A stretch of DNA of 64,000 bases, taken from positions 1 through 64,000 of the forward strand of contig NZ_JAAAKZ010000022.1 in assembly GCF_009905605.1 (NCBI RefSeq), read 5' to 3'. Both the position numbers and the translations under genes were made by a program. The stretch comes from Runella sp. CRIBMP (lineage in GTDB: Bacteria > Bacteroidota > Bacteroidia > Cytophagales > Spirosomataceae). Every line of letters begins with the position of its first letter. Position 1 is the first letter of the stretch. Shown one piece after another: positions 4,386-48,213 of this stretch. The notes under the pieces are model-generated. The model was not told the DNA's origin. It did no database searches and saw nothing but the letters and a program-made list of their open reading frames with translations.

Positions 4386-5750
4386 CTACCCCAGCCACCC
4401 TATAAGCCTTAATTTGGACTTTAATTCCGCTTCTTTTAGCTCAAAGTCTTTATTGACAACAGAAAATCGCTCGGGGAATTTTTGCATGGCTTTCATGAAA
4501 ATAAGGGTTTGAACATGCTCTCTGTTCAGATTTTCTGCATCGTCTTTCTTTCTATCCCAATCTCGGCTGTACTTTAACCCTTCAATGATTTGTTGGCGTG
4601 TTTCAGGTGTTTGCTCAAAAATCTCAGCAACTATCAACTTTTGCTTTTCATAGTGATCAATTCTAAGATTTTCCAGCTCGTTCTCCAATGCCCCTCTTTC
4701 ATTTGCCTTTTCTTGTTGTTGCGCTGCTATTTTAGTTCGGTTTTGCCGCTTTACTTCAATAGGGTCAATTACTCCTTTTGTAGAAATCATCTTTGCCATG
4801 TATGCAGGAATATTTTTAATTTTCTCGCCTGCTTTTATTCTATTGAGTGTATAAACAATTCCCGTTTTTACGTCATCGTATGTATATTTTGACAACCACT
4901 GCTGCAATGTCTGGTCAGGGATTAAATCAGCTGTTAAGATTGAAAGCTCATTCAGAGCCGTTTCTTTTTCGGTCGAAAACAAAGCCAGATCGGGCAGTTG
5001 CTTTCTTTCTGGCAAATGTGTCAGTATATTGAACTTTATCTTTACAACCTTCCTACCTTGCTTTATTTCTTCAAATGAAAATTTAATGTCGGTGTCTCGG
5101 TTTGCATTCAAATCTTCCTGGGCTTTTAGAATTACTTTGTCTTTGAAGTGACCATACAAAGCGTATTCATCAGCGGCAATTCCTAAGATTAATTTCAGCT
5201 CATCAATATCAAACGTACGGCTGCCTATTTTCTCGTATTGCTTCAACAACTCATAAATCCGTATCGAGTGAACGCTTTTTATTGAAAGTATGCTCCTAAT
5301 ATCGTATATCAGGTATCTGGCTTTGAGCTCCAATAAAAAAGGTTTTAGTCGCGGTTCAAATGTCACCCAAATGCTTTTCTCCGTATCTTTTTTAGCTCTT
5401 TCATCAATCACTCTTTCAATACCTGTGAATAGTGGAATGGTAAGCTCGGTTTTAAAACCATCTCTTTCGCTCTGTATGGCAATGATTTTCTTTTGGAGTC
5501 CAAGGGCTGCTTCTCTTAAAAATTGATAAATCTCCCCTCCCTTACTCAATCCAAATTCATCAATTACTTGTCCTACATTGATTTTATACTCTTTGAAATC
5601 GGCATCGGAAGGATGTATCATTGATAAAGTAATGGCAAAGATTCGTGTTTCCCAAATATCAAACTTGTATCTTGCCTCTACTAATTCATTGGCTTTTTTA
5701 ATAAATCTAACGTCTTCTTTGACATACTCTTTCCTGATTTTTTTTGACAT
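4386..5750 (-). CDS. Replication initiator protein, Rep_3 family
   Basis: This 454-aa protein is the plasmid replication initiator. Residues 15-245 match the Rep_3 (RepB/RepE/PI-type) fold of two winged-helix domains: ANELVEARYKFDIWETRIF begins the first, and RYLIYDIRSILSIKSVHSIRIYELLKQYE is the typical link into the second. The 200-residue C-terminal extension is rich in charged helix (about 320-420) and has no recognised domain. The ATG at 5750 is preceded by an AT-rich leader without a clear Shine-Dalgarno, as is usual in Bacteroidota. An inverted repeat 37-78 bases upstream carries a half-iteron sequence and probably serves for autorepression. Eight iterons lie beyond it, and ParA and its partner are encoded 0.6-1.6 kb upstream on the same strand. 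Confidence 0.93.
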   Translation of the reverse strand: MSKKIRKEYVKEDVRFIKKANELVEARYKFDIWETRIFAITLSMIHPSDADFKEYKINVGQVIDEFGLSKGGEIYQFLREAALGLQKKIIAIQSERDGFKTELTIPLFTGIERVIDERAKKDTEKSIWVTFEPRLKPFLLELKARYLIYDIRSILSIKSVHSIRIYELLKQYEKIGSRTFDIDELKLILGIAADEYALYGHFKDKVILKAQEDLNANRDTDIKFSFEEIKQGRKVVKIKFNILTHLPERKQLPDLALFSTEKETALNELSILTADLIPDQTLQQWLSKYTYDDVKTGIVYTLNRIKAGEKIKNIPAYMAKMISTKGVIDPIEVKRQNRTKIAAQQQEKANERGALENELENLRIDHYEKQKLIVAEIFEQTPETRQQIIEGLKYSRDWDRKKDDAENLNREHVQTLIFMKAMQKFPERFSVVNKDFELKEAELKSKLRLIGWLG

Positions 5751-5828: not shown

Positions 5829-5900
5829 GTGATATTTTATGGTTAGTGATTTTTTTCGTAGTAATGGTGATAGTTCGCTTACAATCATTCACCTGAAAAG

Positions 5901-5927
5901 TTATCCACATTCCACTTTTGTGGATAA
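5901..5927. promoter_or_regulatory. Two facing DnaA boxes
   Basis: TTATCCACA (5901-5909) and its reverse complement TGTGGATAA (5919-5927) match the consensus DnaA box exactly. They lie between the first and second iterons and suggest that host DnaA takes part in origin opening. Confidence 0.8.
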
Positions 5928-6114
5928 CTTTATTTTCGTAGTAATGGTGATAATAGTTCGTAGTAATGGTGATAGTTAACGTAGTAATGGTGATAATAGA
6001 TTTTGATATTTCGTAGTAATGGTGATAGTTAACGTAGTAATGGTGATAATAGATTTCATAACACTATGTAAATCAGAGTGTTATGAGGGCCGAAAGTATT
6101 ACATATTGTTATTC

Positions 6115-6233
6115 ATACATTATTTAAAACAACACAGAGACCGTTGTTTTTATTTTTTTTTTCAAAAAGGGTAAAAAAAAGTTTTTTAGAAGAAATTTAC
6201 ATCTGTTTTTAAAATTACCGCAAAATACAGTTT
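6115..6233. other. AT-rich tract, probable unwinding element
   Basis: This stretch between two iteron groups is dominated by runs of T (about 6149-6162) and A (6174-6180). It is the most likely DNA-unwinding element of the origin. The assignment is by position and composition only. Confidence 0.5.
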
Positions 6234-6314
6234 CGTAGTAATGGTGATAGTTAGCTGCAAAAAATCGTAGTAATGGTGATAATAACGCCTGTTGTTAATT
6301 TTGCATAAAAATTG

Positions 6315-6380: not shown

Positions 6381-6662
6381 TTATTCAATTAGCTTGTGCT
6401 TTTGGGTGTATTCTTCCAAGGCTTCTACAAAAAGGGCCTTTATCTTTTTCTTTTTCTTAAAGCCCAGTTCTTTTATGGTATCCATTAATTCCGTAGGTAT
6501 ATGAACCGTAAATTTAGTCTCGGCTACTTTGGGAGTCTTGTCAGGTTCAGATTTGCTTCGGTCCTGTATTGGTGTTATCTCCTGCAAAGGAGTATTATCT
6601 TCTTTGTCTTTTAGTTTACCCCCCAACGTGGCCAACTGATTTTTGAAATTATCCTTTTTCAT
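6381..6662 (-). CDS. Small RHH-like partition partner of ParA
   Basis: This 93-aa basic protein lies 54 bases after parA on the same strand. The first 45 residues are charged and probably disordered. Residues 50-90 (KFTVHIPTELMDTIKELGF, then helices ending EALEEYTQKH) have the beta-strand and two-helix pattern of ribbon-helix-helix DNA-binding proteins. Small RHH proteins often serve as the centromere-binding ParB partner in type Ib plasmid partition systems, where ParA is also short, as here. Repeats on both sides of the gene are candidate binding sites. The fold and role are inferred from pattern and position. Confidence 0.65.
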   Translation of the reverse strand: MKKDNFKNQLATLGGKLKDKEDNTPLQEITPIQDRSKSEPDKTPKVAETKFTVHIPTELMDTIKELGFKKKKKIKALFVEALEEYTQKHKLIE

Positions 6663-6716
6663 ACTTGTGTATTTATGGTATTACATATTTATGGTATTAT
6701 GGTTTTATGTAAAATA
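6663..6716. repeat. AT-rich repeats between parA and its partner gene
   Basis: Two near copies of TATTTATGGTATTA (near 6671 and 6689) followed by TATGGTTTTATGTAAAA fill the gap between the two partition genes. The same words occur at 4343-4380 and 7338-7405. They may be the partition-site array or an operator. Confidence 0.5.
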
Positions 6717-7316
6717 TTACAGATATTCCAAAATTTCTTTTGTTAGGTTAAATATCTCCTGTTGGGCTTTATCATCTTCTGTTTCAAAGACACCGCCAGT
6801 AATCGGTGAACGAGCGTAGCTAACTCTCTGCGAAATCATCGTGTCTAAGATGGGCATTTCATACTGTTCGAGAAGCTGTTTAATGTCATCGGTTAAGCTA
6901 GTGCGGTGTTGAATCATATTCAGCACAATAGCGGCCTTTAGGTTGGGACGTTTTGTCTGGGCCTGTTTAAGTAAAGCAATCGTTGCTTTGATTGCCATGA
7001 CATCCAATACACCTGCTTTGGTGGGGACCAAAACGAAATCGGATAGTTGAAAAAAGTCAGGCAGCTTACTGCTCAAATATGGTGGTGTATCAATTATGGC
7101 AACATCGTAGCTTTTGCTCGCTTTTGCAATCTCATCAATCGGTAAAAGGTCAATCCCTTTTAATCCGACCAACTCACCTAATCCTGCTATGCTTCCTTGC
7201 GGGTCGCTGTCTAGTATGGCTACCCGAACGGAATTCTGTAAACAATATCCAAGATTAAGGGCGATGGTAGTTTTGCCAACACCTCCTTTTTGGTGGGCTA
7301 TGGTAATGATTTTCAT
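6717..7316 (-). CDS. parA: ParA-family partition ATPase
   Basis: This 199-aa protein has the deviant Walker A motif KGGVGKTT at residues 10-17, the Walker A' segment (AILDSDPQGS, about 36-45) and the Walker B region (VAIIDTPPYLS). Its length matches short ParA proteins of the type Ib or MinD-like group, without an N-terminal DNA-binding domain. It probably positions plasmid copies by ATP-dependent binding to the nucleoid, working with the small protein encoded downstream. The frame is open to 7370, but the ATG at 7316 puts the canonical MKIITIAHQKGG at the N-terminus and is preferred. AT-rich repeats lie directly upstream and downstream. Confidence 0.92.
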   Translation of the reverse strand: MKIITIAHQKGGVGKTTIALNLGYCLQNSVRVAILDSDPQGSIAGLGELVGLKGIDLLPIDEIAKASKSYDVAIIDTPPYLSSKLPDFFQLSDFVLVPTKAGVLDVMAIKATIALLKQAQTKRPNLKAAIVLNMIQHRTSLTDDIKQLLEQYEMPILDTMISQRVSYARSPITGGVFETEDDKAQQEIFNLTKEILEYL

Positions 7317-7337
7317 GTATGAATTGTTGTGTTTTAC

Positions 7338-7405
7338 ATTCAAATATAATACATAATTATGTAAAACCATATTAATGTAATTATGGTAATATGTAATTAT
7401 GTAAA
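7338..7405. repeat. AT-rich repeats upstream of parA
   Basis: ATAATTATGTAAAACCATA, ATGTAATTATGGTAATATG and TAATTATGTAAAA are variants of the words seen at 4343, 6315 and 6663. The position directly upstream of the parA start suggests an operator or centromere that binds the partition partner. Confidence 0.5.
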
Positions 7406-14248: not shown

Positions 14249-14581
14249 ATGAAAACACTTATCTGTATACTCCCAATACTTATATCCATTGAGACAAATG
14301 GCTTCAGTGAATCGACTAGCCGTAATCTACACATGCCATCAATTGGATATTGGGTGGTAGAAACTAATCCCCAAAAATGTGATCTTTCTTTAGTATACTA
14401 CTATGACAATAACGATGACCTAATCCATTCAGAAGTTATCGTCTTAGGACCCAAAAATTTTCCTAACAATAGACTGAAAAGAAAATTAAATAAAAAACTT
14501 AAACATTTTATATTGAAGGAATCCTCGGACAGTACGACCGAAACAGATAATCAGTGGGTTTTAGCAACAAAAAAGAAATGA
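14249..14581 (+). CDS. Small secreted protein, 110 aa
   Basis: The protein starts with a signal peptide (MKTLICILPILISIETNGFS) followed by a short beta-rich stretch, GYWVVETNPQ and LSLVYYYDNNDD, and a very basic helical segment (about residues 75-90, rich in Lys/Arg/Leu). I do not recognise the family; similar short periplasmic proteins with a GYWVVE motif occur in Bacteroidota as far as I recall. It ends with TGA overlapping the next start (ATGA, 14578-14581). Operon member, function unknown. Confidence 0.6.
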   Translation: MKTLICILPILISIETNGFSESTSRNLHMPSIGYWVVETNPQKCDLSLVYYYDNNDDLIHSEVIVLGPKNFPNNRLKRKLNKKLKHFILKESSDSTTETDNQWVLATKKK

Positions 14582-15021
14582 ACAAGATTTATTTAATATT
14601 AGCCTTAACAGCTGGGTTTGTCTTGCCACTGCAAATTGCTTTTAACAATAAGCTTACTTCTTTTTCGGGTAATGCGATCACGTCGTCATTGATTTCATTT
14701 TCGGTAGGCACAATTGCGTTGATTATTTATAGCGTAAGTAATCCTACGGCATTATATAAATCATTCTTACAACTCGGTCAGTCTCCACCTTATGCGTGGC
14801 TTGGGGGGCTGGTGGGTGCATTTTATATTATTTCAACCATAGTTGCCTCACCTAAGCTGGGAATAGCCGTTTTTTTAGGACTTGTCATTTGTGGACAAAT
14901 GGCTATGTCACTATTGTTGGACCATTATGGCTTATTTGGTATGCCTGTAAAACCCTTTAATTGGGTGAAGGGAATAGGTCTAATGTTAGTTTTAGCTGGA
15001 ATTTTACTGATAAAGAAATAG
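14578..15021 (+). CDS. YdcZ/DUF606-family DMT transporter
   Basis: The ATG at 14578 overlaps the preceding stop by four bases and yields 147 aa, the usual single-module length of DUF606 proteins, with about five membrane helices. Conserved features are the first helix with PLQIAFNNKL, a GLVGAFYIISTIVASPKLG stretch in the third helix and GQMAMSLLLDHYGLFG in the fourth. Family members are drug/metabolite-type transporters with unknown substrates. It is the last gene in the operon starting at 12496; no clear terminator follows. Confidence 0.8.
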   Translation: MNKIYLILALTAGFVLPLQIAFNNKLTSFSGNAITSSLISFSVGTIALIIYSVSNPTALYKSFLQLGQSPPYAWLGGLVGAFYIISTIVASPKLGIAVFLGLVICGQMAMSLLLDHYGLFGMPVKPFNWVKGIGLMLVLAGILLIKK

Positions 15022-15137
15022 CTAAGACTGAAAAAAAATATCTGCCTAGGAAATAAACTTGATTTCCTGAATCGATATTTGAAAGAGGCTAAAAACGTCC
15101 CGAGGACTATCTTTGATCTTAGGTAAACTATCGGCAT

Positions 15138-15238
15138 GTAACCTAAACGTATAGTCTGGCAACCTTTTCTTCCCCAATTTCAGGTTACCAAACAAAATGA
15201 TCGGGTTAAGTAACCTGAGGTAACTAATAGGTTACCTA
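15138..15238. repeat. Cluster of GGTTACC half sites
   Basis: Within 100 bases there are GTAACCT (15138), AGGTTACC (15182-15189), GGTTAAGTAACC (15204-15215) and the inverted pair AGGTAAC/GTTACCT (15218-15224 and 15231-15237). The density and the two orientations suggest binding sites for a dimeric protein. No gene lies close downstream apart from a pseudogene. Confidence 0.35.
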
Positions 15239-15539
15239 CATAAACATAGTGTTTTTTCTAACCCTTACGTTCCATTTTTCGGGAGCCAGCATTACGTTTC
15301 CATATGGTATCATTACATTATGGATTACCTGCTAAAAAGGGAGTGCTTCCCGACCCTGCTGGATTGATTAGGACAACATAGAGGTCTCATAAAAACAGAG
15401 GTACAGATTTCCTGAAAACCCGAGATAAAAAGCAGTAATACAGGCCAAAAAGTCGGTTTCCATAATAGTTTCATACTGAATTTTATGTTGAATAGGATCT
15501 CTTAAACACGCAGAAGTTTACGTAAATAACCTAGTGTTT
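15239..15539. other. Intergenic, no supported gene
   Basis: About 300 bases between the GGTTACC cluster and the cysteine-desulfurase remnant. Nothing recognisable was seen. Confidence 0.35.
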
Positions 15540-15856
15540 AAATTTGTACAGTCGCACTTTACACTTCTGAATGTTGCTTTTCCCAACCTTCATTCTTCGG
15601 AGTATTTGGTCAGTCAATTGAATCTGTATGGGATTGCGAATCGGGTGGTAGTGCTTGTTCCAATCTACATATGTCTCACTCTCATGTATTGACGGCACCG
15701 CAAAGCAATGTTGAGTTGGAAAATGTTCGGTTTTCATTTAACAAGAACAATACACCAGCCGATGTGGATTACATTATTCAGAGCCTTAAAAATATATACC
15801 ACTCCGATCGTCATTTGTACATCAGAAACCCCGTTCGTGCAAAAATTTCAGCTTGA
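15540..15856 (+). pseudogene. Cysteine desulfurase (NifS/IscS-like) 3' remnant
   Basis: Two frames together give the C-terminal third of a class V aminotransferase-type cysteine desulfurase. The first reads LNVAFPNLHSSEYLVSQLNL and YGIA. The second continues with SGGSACSN, which contains the active-site Cys loop, then SHVLTAPQSN and VRFSFNKNNTPADVDYIIQS. A frameshift lies near 15645 between YGIA and SGGSAC, and the N-terminal PLP domain is absent. The gene is dead, but the conserved loop makes the identification firm. Confidence 0.8.
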
Positions 15857-15980
15857 AAGCAAAAGGAAAGCCTATTTACTCAAAAGGGTGTCAGTTTGAA
15901 GCTAATTCCATTGAGTCGGCGCCGATGGCGCAGAATAAATAATTTAATTGCCGTGTATTATTGGTGGGGGGAATAGTTCT

Positions 15981-16027: not shown

Positions 16028-17509
16028 TTAAAGTTTGATATTAAATATATCATAAAGTGCCTGTTTTGCGGCGTGATAACCGCACATCCCGTGAACTCCT
16101 CCTCCGGGAGGGGTAGAAGAGGAACAGATATATAACCCCTTTGTGGAGCTGCGATACGGAGACCACCTCAATGCCGGCCGTGTAAAGAGTTGGTCGAGGG
16201 TTAAAGCACCGCCGTTAATATCTCCCCCGATATAATTGGGGTTGTATTCTTCCATTTGGGCCGTATTGAGCGTATGTCTTGCCAAAATTCGCTCTCTAAA
16301 ACCTGGCGCAAAACGTTCAATTTGCCTTTCTATGGTGTTTGTCATGTCTTTAGTGGAACCGTTTGGGACGTGGCAATAACCCCACAACACATGTTTGTCT
16401 TTTGGAGCACGGGTAGCATCAAAAAGACTTTGTTGGGCTAGCAAAACAAAAGGTTTTTCAGCATGGGAGCCATTCCAAACCGATTGCTCGGCGGCGGCTA
16501 TTTCCTGAAAAGTATTTCCGAGGTGCAACGTACCAGCAGCCCTAGCTGCTTCGGAGCGAAACGGAACGGGGCCATCCAATGCCCAATCAACCTTAAAAAC
16601 GCCCATCCCATAACGGTATTTTTCAAGCTGCCATTTATAAATAGCCGAAAACTGATGTCCAGCAATTTTGAGTAACTGTCGCGGTGTAATGTCGAATAAA
16701 ATTGTTTGGGCGGAAGGCAGTTGCGAAAGTGATTGAACGTAAAAATCTGTTTCAATTTTGCCCCCAATTGACGTAAAATACGAAGCTAAGGCATTGCTGA
16801 TTTGCTGAGAGCCTCCCTTAGGAATGGGCCACCCTTGCACATGCCCAGCGGTCAGTAAGATCAAACCGATGGCGGAAGTAGTCAAGTGACTGAGGGGTAA
16901 AATCGAATGCGCCGCCATCCCGGCCCACAGCCCTTGCGCGGCTGGGGTTTTGAACTTTTTAACCAACCAAGAAGCTGGCGCTAAGGCATTAAGGCCGAAT
17001 TGAGCAAAACTAATCGGGTTTTCGGGAAAGCGCAAAGGACCTAAAATGCCCGAAATAAGGGACGTCCAGTGTTTTTTAATGGGGTATATCAAGGATAGGT
17101 ACTTTGCCTCGTCTATTCCCAATAATGAAGCTGTTTTGTCAATGGATTGGGCAAGTACCGCCGCGGTTCCATCGTCAAATGGGTGGGCTGCCGCAATGGG
17201 AGAATAAAGATATTCCAAGCCATGTTTCTCTAATGGTAAAGTGCTAAAAAAAGGAGAGGCCACCGCCATAGGATGAATAGCTGAGCAAATATCATGTTTA
17301 AAGCCTGGCAGGGTTAATTCTGCCGTTCGTAAGCCACCTCCAATCGTAGATTTTCCTTCTACCAGCAAAACCTGTAGCCCTGCTTGTTGCATAGTAATGG
17401 CCGCGGATAGCCCGTTTGGGCCAGAACCAACCACAACAGCATCAAAATCATAGCTTTTTGCCCCCCGAAAGGAGGGCTGGGTTGTAATAAATGGTTGGTT
17501 ATTTTTCAA
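16028..17509 (-). CDS. FAD-dependent oxidoreductase, phytoene-desaturase-like
   Basis: This 493-aa protein has the dinucleotide-binding motif GSGPNG at 28-33, an acidic residue after the second strand (VEGKSTIGGGLRT, about 50-62) and a C-terminal FAD-binding stretch STPPGGGVHGMCGYHAA (about 466-482). These define the COG1233 family, which includes CrtI and retinol-saturase-like enzymes. Neighbours give no carotenoid pathway, so the substrate is unknown. It is the last gene of the long minus-strand run, 47 bases after soxC, with a terminator immediately downstream. It has no signal peptide and is probably cytosolic or membrane-associated. Confidence 0.8.
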   Translation of the reverse strand: MKNNQPFITTQPSFRGAKSYDFDAVVVGSGPNGLSAAITMQQAGLQVLLVEGKSTIGGGLRTAELTLPGFKHDICSAIHPMAVASPFFSTLPLEKHGLEYLYSPIAAAHPFDDGTAAVLAQSIDKTASLLGIDEAKYLSLIYPIKKHWTSLISGILGPLRFPENPISFAQFGLNALAPASWLVKKFKTPAAQGLWAGMAAHSILPLSHLTTSAIGLILLTAGHVQGWPIPKGGSQQISNALASYFTSIGGKIETDFYVQSLSQLPSAQTILFDITPRQLLKIAGHQFSAIYKWQLEKYRYGMGVFKVDWALDGPVPFRSEAARAAGTLHLGNTFQEIAAAEQSVWNGSHAEKPFVLLAQQSLFDATRAPKDKHVLWGYCHVPNGSTKDMTNTIERQIERFAPGFRERILARHTLNTAQMEEYNPNYIGGDINGGALTLDQLFTRPALRWSPYRSSTKGLYICSSSTPPGGGVHGMCGYHAAKQALYDIFNIKL

Positions 17510-36948: not shown

Positions 36949-38100
36949 CTATAATTTTAGTAAATATCCGACTGCCGCCGCGGCAATGATGATGTACGGC
37001 TCTTTTATTTTTTTGACGTAAATCAAGGCTAACATTGCCGCCACGGCGATGAGTGCCGTTGGGATGTCAATGATGCTTTGCCTGGCAATGACCAACACCG
37101 CTCCCACCAATGCGCCCACCACTGCCGCCGTGATGCCATCCACAAACGCTTTGATAGATTTATTTTTAGCGATTTTCTGAAAATACGGAGCGGGTAAAAT
37201 CGTAAAGAGATAGCAGGGTAAAAAGGTAGCCAAAGCCGCTACGCACGCCCCCCAGAAACCATTGACCAAATACCCAATAAAAGCGACAGTAATGACAACG
37301 GGTCCAGGTGTAATCATCGCTACCGCCACGGCGTCCAGAAACTGTTGCTCGTTGAGCCAGCCGTATTCCTCCACGACCCCAGCGTGTAAAAAGGGTACAA
37401 TCGCCAAGCCGCTTCCGAATACGAAAGCTCCCGCTTTGGCAAAGAAAAGGGCAATTTTCCACAGCGTCGTCGATTCATATTGCCAAAAATCTATTTGTAA
37501 GAATACCAATCCTTGGGCTGCGTTTGAAGGTATTTTGGGCGGATTTTTGACAAACATGTACAACAAACCTGCCGCTACAAAAAGCAATACCTGTTCTTGT
37601 TTGGTAATAAACGTAACCGTACAAGCCCCTAAAAAAAACGACCAAAGTAGCCAATTGGTTTTCAAGGAGATAAGCGTAAATTTTCCAATAGATTTTGGGG
37701 TGAGTTTGTACGAACTTAGGGCAATAATTCCGATAGCCGCTGCCCCAATGCCGTAAAAAACCGACTGCATCCACGGTAGCCCGCCGAATTGCTGGTAGGC
37801 AATGCCCAGCAAAAGCACCATCATAAATGAAGGAAGTACAAAAGCAGTCCCAACGAGCGTGGCCCCCAAGACTCCATAATGCACATAGCCCAGATAAATG
37901 CTCAATTGTGCCGCCAAGGGCCCAGGAGCAAGTTGCGCCAACGCCAATCCGTTTTTATATTCTTCTTCTGAAATCCACTGACGATGTTCCACCAAATCTT
38001 TGTGCATGTAGCCTACCAACGCCACAGGTCCGCCAAAACCTGCATAGCCGAGTTTTAGAAAGTAAAACGTTAAGTCTTTCAGTGAATACTGTACTGTCAT
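36949..38100 (-). CDS. chrA: Chromate transporter ChrA
   Basis: This 383-aa inner-membrane protein has two CHR modules. The first (about 8-180) carries FLKLGYAGFGGPVALVGYM and ALAQLAPGPLAAQLSIYLGY. The second (about 210-383) carries FFAKAGAFVFGSGLAIVPFL and AMITPGPVVITVAFIGYL. These duplicated FG and PGP motifs are characteristic of long-chain CHR transporters, which export chromate. It lies 78 bases after a ChrB-domain regulator on the same strand, so the unit is a chromate-resistance operon with regulation by the fused sensor. Confidence 0.92.
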   Translation of the reverse strand: MTVQYSLKDLTFYFLKLGYAGFGGPVALVGYMHKDLVEHRQWISEEEYKNGLALAQLAPGPLAAQLSIYLGYVHYGVLGATLVGTAFVLPSFMMVLLLGIAYQQFGGLPWMQSVFYGIGAAAIGIIALSSYKLTPKSIGKFTLISLKTNWLLWSFFLGACTVTFITKQEQVLLFVAAGLLYMFVKNPPKIPSNAAQGLVFLQIDFWQYESTTLWKIALFFAKAGAFVFGSGLAIVPFLHAGVVEEYGWLNEQQFLDAVAVAMITPGPVVITVAFIGYLVNGFWGACVAALATFLPCYLFTILPAPYFQKIAKNKSIKAFVDGITAAVVGALVGAVLVIARQSIIDIPTALIAVAAMLALIYVKKIKEPYIIIAAAAVGYLLKL

Positions 38101-47671: not shown

Positions 47672-48213
47672 TTACCCCCGAAGTCGCAGATATTTATAAA
47701 ACGTCATTTTGGTAATACCCACGGTTTTGGCAATTTCATCAACGCCCAATTTTTCCTCTTTGTAATACATTTCGGCCAACATTGCTTTTTTCTGCGCTTC
47801 GGCCGAAAGCCCGCTGCTTCGTCCACCTTTTCGCCCCCGGGCACGAGCGGCTTCCAATCCCGCTTTGGTTCGCTCCCGAATCTGGTCCCTCTCCAACTCG
47901 GCCAGAATCGCCCCTGCGGCGTAGTGGTATCAATCGAGTCGGTCAGGCTGCGCAGGCCCACTCCGCGTTTCTCAAATTCCGCTACCAGTTCCAATAGATT
48001 TTTTAGAGAACGACCTAAACGTTCGAGATTGTAGATACAGACCACATCTCCTTTGCGAAGTTGGGACATCATCTTCTCCAATTCAGGCCAGTCGGCTTTG
48101 ATGTCTGAAGCTTTTTCCTGAAAGATCATTTCGCAACCCGCTTTAGTGATGTCATCCTAGGGTGATTCTAAATTTTGGTCTTTTGTTGACACTCTGGCGT
48201 AACCAATCAGCAT
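47672..48213 (-). pseudogene. Serine resolvase/invertase, disrupted
   Basis: Reading from an ATG at 48213 gives MLIGYARVSTKDQNLES with the catalytic Ser in RVST, then TAG at 48157-48159, and the same frame resumes as DITKAGCEMIFQEKASDIKA. It continues with VVCIYNLERLGRSLKNLLEL and TTTPQG. There a small deletion plus frameshift removes the expected RLIFxIF segment. The other frame then gives AELERDQIRERTKAGLEAAR and a C-terminal helix-turn-helix (VDEIAKTVGITKMTFYKYL). The protein would be a Pin/Tn3-type resolvase. Both lesions make it inactive. It marks a former mobile element. Confidence 0.88.

Follow-up and report, generated by a model that had tools for sequence, protein, structure and literature searches.

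A dense group of GGTTACC-like half sites, lying between an exporter gene and a broken gene remnant on a Runella contig, raises the question of what such sites are for. The initial annotation of the window (the whole 64,000-nucleotide stretch analysed here) read them as operators, possibly of a gene lost at 15.5 kb, or as an attachment site.

Sites at 15138-15237 and the surrounding element

Half sites of the forms GGTTAC, GTAACC, GGTAAC and GTTACC, once merged, start at 15138, 15184, 15210, 15220 and 15231, five within 101 bp. Across 300 dinucleotide-preserving shuffles of the window, the densest 101 bp contained one, two or three half sites in 13, 258 and 29 cases, respectively, and never at least four; the described density of five in about 100 bases thus holds, no shuffle having exceeded three. 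The AGGTAAC-N6-GTTACCT arrangement that had been singled out is also present, as an exact pair at 15218-15237. Over the entire window the half sites have an ordinary frequency (53 versus 47.6 +/- 6.4 in shuffles), and GGTTACC is not enriched (7 observed, 6.97 expected). The site cluster is a real, locally significant feature, and its first reading was too narrow. The half sites are better read as parts of whole 9-bp near-palindromes, AGGTWACCT (W = A or T), the last three of which have centres 10 and 11 bp apart. On sequence evidence, the cluster extends beyond its first description, with homology to Runella plasmids covering 15077-15378.

14554..15021, plus strand: left neighbour, DMT_YdcZ-type exporter gene (Pfam PF04657)
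15077..15378, plus strand: whole recurring non-coding element, diverged copy, from blastn homology
15077-15190, 15218-15304 and 15290-15378: element segments A, B and C
15121-15129 (1 mismatch), 15136-15144 (1) and 15182-15190 (1), no strand: first three AGGTWACCT-type sites
15208-15216 (1 mismatch), 15218-15226 (2) and 15229-15237 (0), no strand: last three AGGTWACCT-type sites
15290..15378, plus strand: segment C, relic of a 10-11-bp phased GTATC/GGTATCATTA array with the conserved right edge, ending in AGGACAACATA
15560..15860 (limits by eye), plus strand: right neighbour, frameshifted remnant of a NifS-like cysteine desulfurase C-terminus
16028..17509, minus strand: FAD-dependent oxidoreductase

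In the window, the sites belong to a diverged version of a plasmid-borne Runella element that is non-coding and in which AGGTWACCT sites at helix-like spacings are followed by an array of 10-11-bp units. A BLAST query with positions 15022-15560 matched 5 of 39 genomes, the window's own (G000) and four of the same genus; the match in G006 was limited to 15477-15550, outside the array. Homologues of the element were found by blastn on Runella rosea (G010) unnamed1, unnamed4 and unnamed5, on G002:C263 and G002:C202, and on R. aurantiaca YX9 (G012) contigs C35 and C46, the closest to the window being the array of G012:C35 (89%). The plasmid records matched were those of R. rosea HYN0085 unnamed1, unnamed4 and unnamed5, and another element copy used as query gave a weak match to the R. 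slithyformis plasmid record pRUNSL04.

Aligned copies contain up to about 15 AGGTWACCT sites over some 350 bp, with centre-to-centre spacings mostly of 10, 11, 15, 21, 24-26 and 46 bp, near whole or half helix turns. Their site plans follow spacings of 10/11/21 or 15/25/46 bp before giving way to the second array, with its 10-11-bp units GTAAGGATACC and ATTACGTTAC; segment C of the window was assigned to this part by alignment with the other copies and from the half-site list. Of 11 related stretches one had no site; the 75 spacings measured in the other 10 comprised 19 of 9-11 bp, 6 of 15 bp, 15 of 19-22 bp, 19 of 24-26 bp, 2 of 35-36 bp and 8 of 46 bp, with 6 longer. A periodicity scan gave a broad peak at 11-12 instead of 10.5, and the term 'phased' therefore rests on the spacing list. 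Several copies end at their right edge in AGGACRAYACA, and several differ by gaps ending inside AGGTWACC sites (gap placement being the aligner's), as expected of recombination between repeats.

Exact GGTNACC cores number 2 in the window, 3 in G012:C35, 10 in G012:C30 and 12 in copy b of R. rosea unnamed1. Sites were more conserved than spacers both among seven copies (94% versus 83%) and between the window and those copies (86% versus 65%), in columns chosen by site and thus partly circular, and no clear difference was seen between the window and G012:C35 (43/45 site and 66/72 spacer positions kept). On a pond contig (L156), whose MAG bears an Alphaproteobacteria label probably through misbinning, the array is intact, with 15 cores at the Runella spacings. 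Some 1.9 kb away, in the opposite orientation and beyond ORFs that look IS3-like by eye, is a counterpart of the window's FAD oxidoreductase that is nearly identical to it. No small ORF in the element was common to at least three of nine regions (80 ORFs examined), Rfam gave no match to 14-17 kb of the window at E up to 1, and GC skew in six plasmids revealed no consistent position of the element. A second short repeat at 15477-15565 recurs on G006:C43 and G012:C4 with 73-76% identity; the blastn matches there take in this repeat alone, without the NifS-like remnant behind it.

Distribution and plasmid context

Within 13 Runella genomes, the strict pair pattern AGGTWACC-N1-20-GGTWACC had 74 matches, 68 of them in arrays on six contigs (G010 C2, C5 and C6; G012 C30; G002 C202 and C263) and 6 elsewhere; its reversed control had 51. 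All 36 matches in R. rosea were on the plasmids C2, C5 and C6, and the window's own array, too diverged for this pattern, is not among the 74. A family-wide search matched 8 of 121 genomes, every one Runella, four of which (G001, G006, G009 and G011) have the 10-bp array part only. Phage records held no match to the element, and neither of two conserved element words was found in viral contigs. Plasmid unnamed1, where an intact array lies at 37165-37568, has two inverted array copies, one array per plasmid being otherwise usual. The named carrier plasmids were typed as non-mobilizable and have no annotated feature beneath the element, and no published title on the element was among the matches listed.

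The window's contig (72,197 bp) encodes Rep3, ParA and a 93-aa ribbon-helix-helix (RHH)-like partner and carries 22-bp iterons and DnaA-like boxes. It is plasmid-like by this content, its ends having no exact overlap.

4386..5750, minus strand: Rep3 replication initiator gene, context outside the element
5840..6270, no strand: 22-bp iterons TTCGTAGTAATGGTGATAATAG and DnaA-box-like 9-mers (5901-5909, 5919-5927), without AGGTWACC
6381..7370, minus strand: RHH-like partition partner of 93 aa (6381-6662) and ParA (6717-7370); AT-rich repeats of their own lie close by

The iterons at 5840..6270 are the likely oriV, the boxes at 5901-5927 having been called with what we take to be the DnaA-box consensus. 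The 93-aa partner weakly matched a CopG-family protein in the PDB (E 0.06), and G012:C35 has the same Rep/ParA/93-aa set as the window. A tRNA search of the window found none. R. rosea unnamed5 (L064, NZ_CP030855; 46.8 kb) has no Rep3 match, no ParA in its annotation and no other iteron-like arrays.

Serine recombinases and a possible accessory site

Only two ORF families (at least 70 aa) are common to the three R. rosea plasmids with arrays, a serine recombinase and the response regulators/kinases, and the recombinase is the sole one of the two missing from the three array-free plasmids. Array and recombinase were thus together on three of six plasmids of one strain, a small sample, and both absent from the other three, and the only three Resolvase-domain genes of R. 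rosea are those on its array plasmids. Among unnamed1, unnamed4 and unnamed5 the proteins are 99-100% identical, and they share 96% identity with the pRUNSL04 protein, whose best sequence matches among structures were Gin and gamma-delta resolvase. The recombinase gene of unnamed1 is flanked by the two inverted array copies, and that of unnamed4 is about 24 kb from the array. The window retains a broken counterpart:

47704..48207, minus strand: serine recombinase pseudogene, counterpart of the recombinase of the R. rosea array plasmids (Pfam PF00239 in two pieces, internal TAG)

Its remaining 141-aa ORF is 92-93% identical to the R. rosea proteins, and near the end of contig G012:C35 is an incomplete Resolvase match with a TAG. 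An array built to the same plan from other words, TGGTAATACAT at 11 bp and GTAATGATAC at 10 bp, follows the recombinase genes of pSP2_2 and G004:C49, whose proteins are identical to each other (and so one case) and 72% identical to those of R. rosea. Clustering of 18 contig sets placed the recombinase on 10 of 15 sets and on none of three array-free plasmids, a non-independent count because several sets were chosen for having a recombinase.

Our preferred reading, at a probability of roughly 0.3, is that the array serves plasmid maintenance by the recombinase, as an accessory or architectural site. The array would be coated by a small DNA-binding protein, perhaps RHH-like given a 9-bp palindrome every 10-11 bp, that bends or wraps the DNA, and the wrapped DNA would form the accessory region of the plasmids' serine-recombinase maintenance system, for multimer resolution or inversion. 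Its role would be akin to that of the accessory sites and bending protein in Sin res, or of the Hin/Gin enhancer sites. That three coexisting plasmids carry this array is in keeping with a site not causing incompatibility. The window copy would most likely be non-functional, with the recombinase broken and the array diverged. The Runella element resembles Sin/Tn3-type res and the Hin/Gin enhancer in being non-coding multi-site DNA, with a Gin/gamma-delta-family serine recombinase on the R. rosea array plasmids. Unlike them, it spreads as many as about 15 short sites of 9 bp across some 350 bp and often lies far from the gene; one near-identical recombinase occurs without an array, and the crossover site is a candidate only.

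That recombinase, on the R. aurantiaca contig G012:C40 (35.2 kb), is 99-99.5% identical to those of R. rosea in the complete absence of GGTWACC, which lowers the odds for an accessory site. The array contigs G012:C46, G002:C202 and G002:C263, all incomplete, have no recombinase, and pRUNSL04 has an intact one with its array reduced to a relic. Near-identical recombinases on three different plasmids indicate that the gene module spreads by itself, and this near-identity together with IS3-like borders means that the link between array and recombinase may be hitchhiking. In unnamed5 the module spans about 1.2 kb (L064:10955-12166; also L025:6210-7560) and is bounded by inverted copies of TGTCCTGTACAAACAAACGCGGGTTT, whose outer bases resemble the ends of IS3-like insertion sequences, by what we take to be the IS3 end rules; the module may be a passenger cassette mobilised in trans.

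The array as the recombinase's own res site was rejected, there being no AGGTWACC upstream near the gene: the upstream region was free of it in eight of nine cases compared, unnamed1 being the exception, with its array further upstream. A check for a dyad crossover site next to the array found AGGACRAYACA half-sites at the right edges of several copies and a palindromic junction at three places, sequences that also match IS3-like ends. Phased arrays were absent beside related recombinases at the loci inspected in Emticicia (two), Hymenobacter (two) and Aureispira (one), as well as at those of Runella G001:C31 and G002:C120; the L097 locus has 21-bp repeats before a Rep gene.

Other readings of the array

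The best surviving alternative, to which we would give a modest chance, is an iteron-type replication origin whose initiator, encoded elsewhere (e.g., a satellite primase-helicase), binds AGGTWACCT as P4 alpha does at ori. The P4 sites are octamers. Excerpts of PMC6092414 and PMC4234260 provided the basis of comparison with P4 and PICI origins: like P4 alpha/ori and PICI pri-rep-ori, the Runella element is a cluster of short iteron-like sites in non-coding DNA, but it has no adjacent initiator gene or DnaA box, and most carriers have a Rep3 oriV elsewhere. The iteron-like architecture, with usually a single array per plasmid, speaks for an origin, as does unnamed5: it gave no Rep3 match, none of the six of its proteins scanned has a replication domain, and tandem arrays exceeding two copies (periods 8-34) were not found apart from the element. 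The window, unnamed1 and unnamed4, however, have Rep3 with its own 22-bp iterons, no DnaA box (at most one mismatch) occurs in any of 11 element stretches, and sharing by three coexisting plasmids should cause incompatibility. Neither primase-helicase family searched is present in all array genomes: VapE occurs in G010 and G002 but not in G000 or G012, and DUF3987 in G012 and G002 but not in G000 or G010. With distributions that do not match the array genomes, both were rejected as the trans initiator. The array as iterons of Rep itself (oriV) was also rejected, since the rep genes have other, 22-bp iterons, with the DnaA-like boxes at 5901-5927 there instead.

In other hosts, GGTWACC arrays adjoin replication genes in 8 of 10 neighbourhoods, picked by eye from 33 arrays after 160 of 197 matching stretches had been scanned. 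These genes encode VapE, DUF927 (three), D5_N/DUF5906 (two), PriCT_2 and DnaB, on loci of other bacteria and viral contigs (L117, L175, L228, L211, L227, L130, L169 and L239); in L239, the DnaB case, the array is inside an ORF, and L120 and L169 are from one MAG with the same spacings. Such neighbours are a lead towards origin function and point to a possible shared iteron word, but GGTWACC-type words may recur by convergence.

A centromere-like partition site, acted on by an RHH protein with ParA, is unlikely. RHH-bound centromeres include omega-parS of pSM19035. The Runella array shares short repeats, part of them at 10-11-bp spacing, with this system and with ParR-parC of R1 and pB171, but unlike them it lies away from the par genes, which have other repeats, and is shared by coexisting plasmids. 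As far as excerpts of PMC9426499 describe them, 10-11-bp short repeats are a usual target of ParR, an RHH protein, which is a likeness in favour of a centromere; the excerpts also treat partition incompatibility. Also in favour, large contigs of G006, G009 and G001 carry similar 10-bp-unit arrays between RHH-like and 70-aa genes. These arrays (L044:1092-1882, L045:1165-1958 and L046:1163-1960) are of the 10-bp phased ATTACGTTAC/ATTACGTATC type and are flanked by a gene that looks RHH-like by eye and by a conserved gene of 69-70 aa, neither with an NCBIfam match; they look like the operator or centromere of an unnamed element. Against a centromere, the window's par genes (6381-7370) have their own, different repeats beside them, searches of G000, G010 and G012 did not find the RHH-like gene of G006/G009, and incompatibility would be expected of three plasmids sharing one array in a single cell. 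The array as the par centromere was rejected because it does not adjoin parA/parB-type genes in the window, and the G006/G009 gene was rejected as array binder by its absence from those three genomes.

Structured single strands, either RNA or single-stranded DNA resembling an oriT or single-strand origin, are an improbable basis for the element; on this reading hairpins would arise from the inverted AGGTAACC/GGTTACCT pairs. In its favour, each of two intact copies folds much more stably than its 100 shuffles (z -6.8 and -5.4), and the central base of the first two sites co-varies between copies (A/T or T/A), so that complementarity is kept. Near-palindrome arrays, however, fold well whatever their function; the window copy reached a z of only -1.96, with 3 of 100 shuffles as good, G012:C46 has one such pair non-complementary, and Rfam gave no match at E up to 1.

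Still less probable are arm-type binding sites or the attachment region of an integrative element. Arm-type sites are bound by the tyrosine integrases of lambda and of CTnDOT-like elements. The Runella element similarly has several short, irregularly spaced sites, but many more of them, with no annotated adjacent integrase and no tRNA. One GGTTACC array in Dyadobacter, which we take to belong to the same family of bacteria as Runella, does have on one side what looks by eye like the end of a tRNA and on the other a tyrosine integrase of the Arm-DNA-bind_5 type; it was the one integrase-adjacent array seen, and its contig is unrelated. Against attachment, the tyrosine integrases of R. rosea are annotated on the array-free unnamed2 and unnamed6, and none is annotated on unnamed1, unnamed4, unnamed5 or pRUNSL04 in partial gene tables; nor does the window contain a tRNA. 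The attachment site first suggested is accordingly kept as a rival of low standing, the array having no integrase beside it on these four plasmids. GGTTACC triplets 9 bp apart, in several sets, occur on Bacteroidales/Prevotella contigs (L110, L115, L125, L126, L138, L149, L157 and L179), three or more of which are from one Prevotella MAG.

Gene control accounts for the element least well. The NifS-like remnant at 15.5 kb had no Pfam match, and its 61-aa piece (15671-15856) matched NCBIfam TIGR03402 at E 5e-5 and 22 bits, far below the cut-off of that model. The window copy is behind the exporter gene, those of unnamed4 and unnamed5 lie between converging genes (an ISL3 transposase gene splitting the array in the latter), the pRUNSL04 relic between two same-strand genes and the G002:C202 copy between diverging ORFs. 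No promoter-type placement is thus kept among the copies, which makes an operator for the remnant unlikely, and the annotation next to the copies in R. rosea and pRUNSL04 includes no NifS-like gene. In the 7,129,087-base genome (55 contigs) there is a single exact AGGTAAC-N6-GTTACCT pair, and with up to two mismatches the pattern was found at 18 places, fewer than the 44 of a reversed control pattern; this leaves no sign of a regulon, which is refuted by the criterion that the initial annotation set for its genome-wide search. With one exact pair and copies between converging genes, genome-wide recurrence upstream of genes was absent, and a transcription operator or regulon was rejected. From the first description, the idea of clustered protein-binding-type sites stands, with the same sites and spacings on other Runella plasmids, and the gene-control role falls; control of the lost gene is contradicted by copies that adjoin unrelated genes, including between converging 3' ends, and by the lack of a genome-wide excess. 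An operator of that gene or a chance cluster is hence barely tenable, since the sites resemble operator half sites by eye but the element recurs beside unrelated genes on many plasmids with no genome-wide excess, and chance is excluded by the shuffles and by homology.

An operator, an oriV and a centromere are together argued against by the differing neighbours, by oriV iterons and par repeats distinct from the array, and by the coexistence of three copies in one strain; plasmid upkeep seems a likelier role for the element than switching a gene since lost. A wider proposition, unlikely as a whole, is that Runella plasmids have an undescribed kind of cis-acting maintenance site, comprising up to 15 helically spaced 9-bp palindromes and a second phased array. 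The recognition words of this site would change with the recombinase subtype, and the site would decay on recombinase loss; the array-free recombinase contig G012:C40 lowers the odds here too. If the accessory-site reading is right, this is a recurring non-coding locus of Runella plasmids, invisible to plasmid typing, that may explain the upkeep of several related plasmids in one cell. AGGTWACCT would provide a short, testable recognition site for isolating the putative binder, and even if the element is merely a variant of an iteron or centromere, it would still be a useful marker of this plasmid family.
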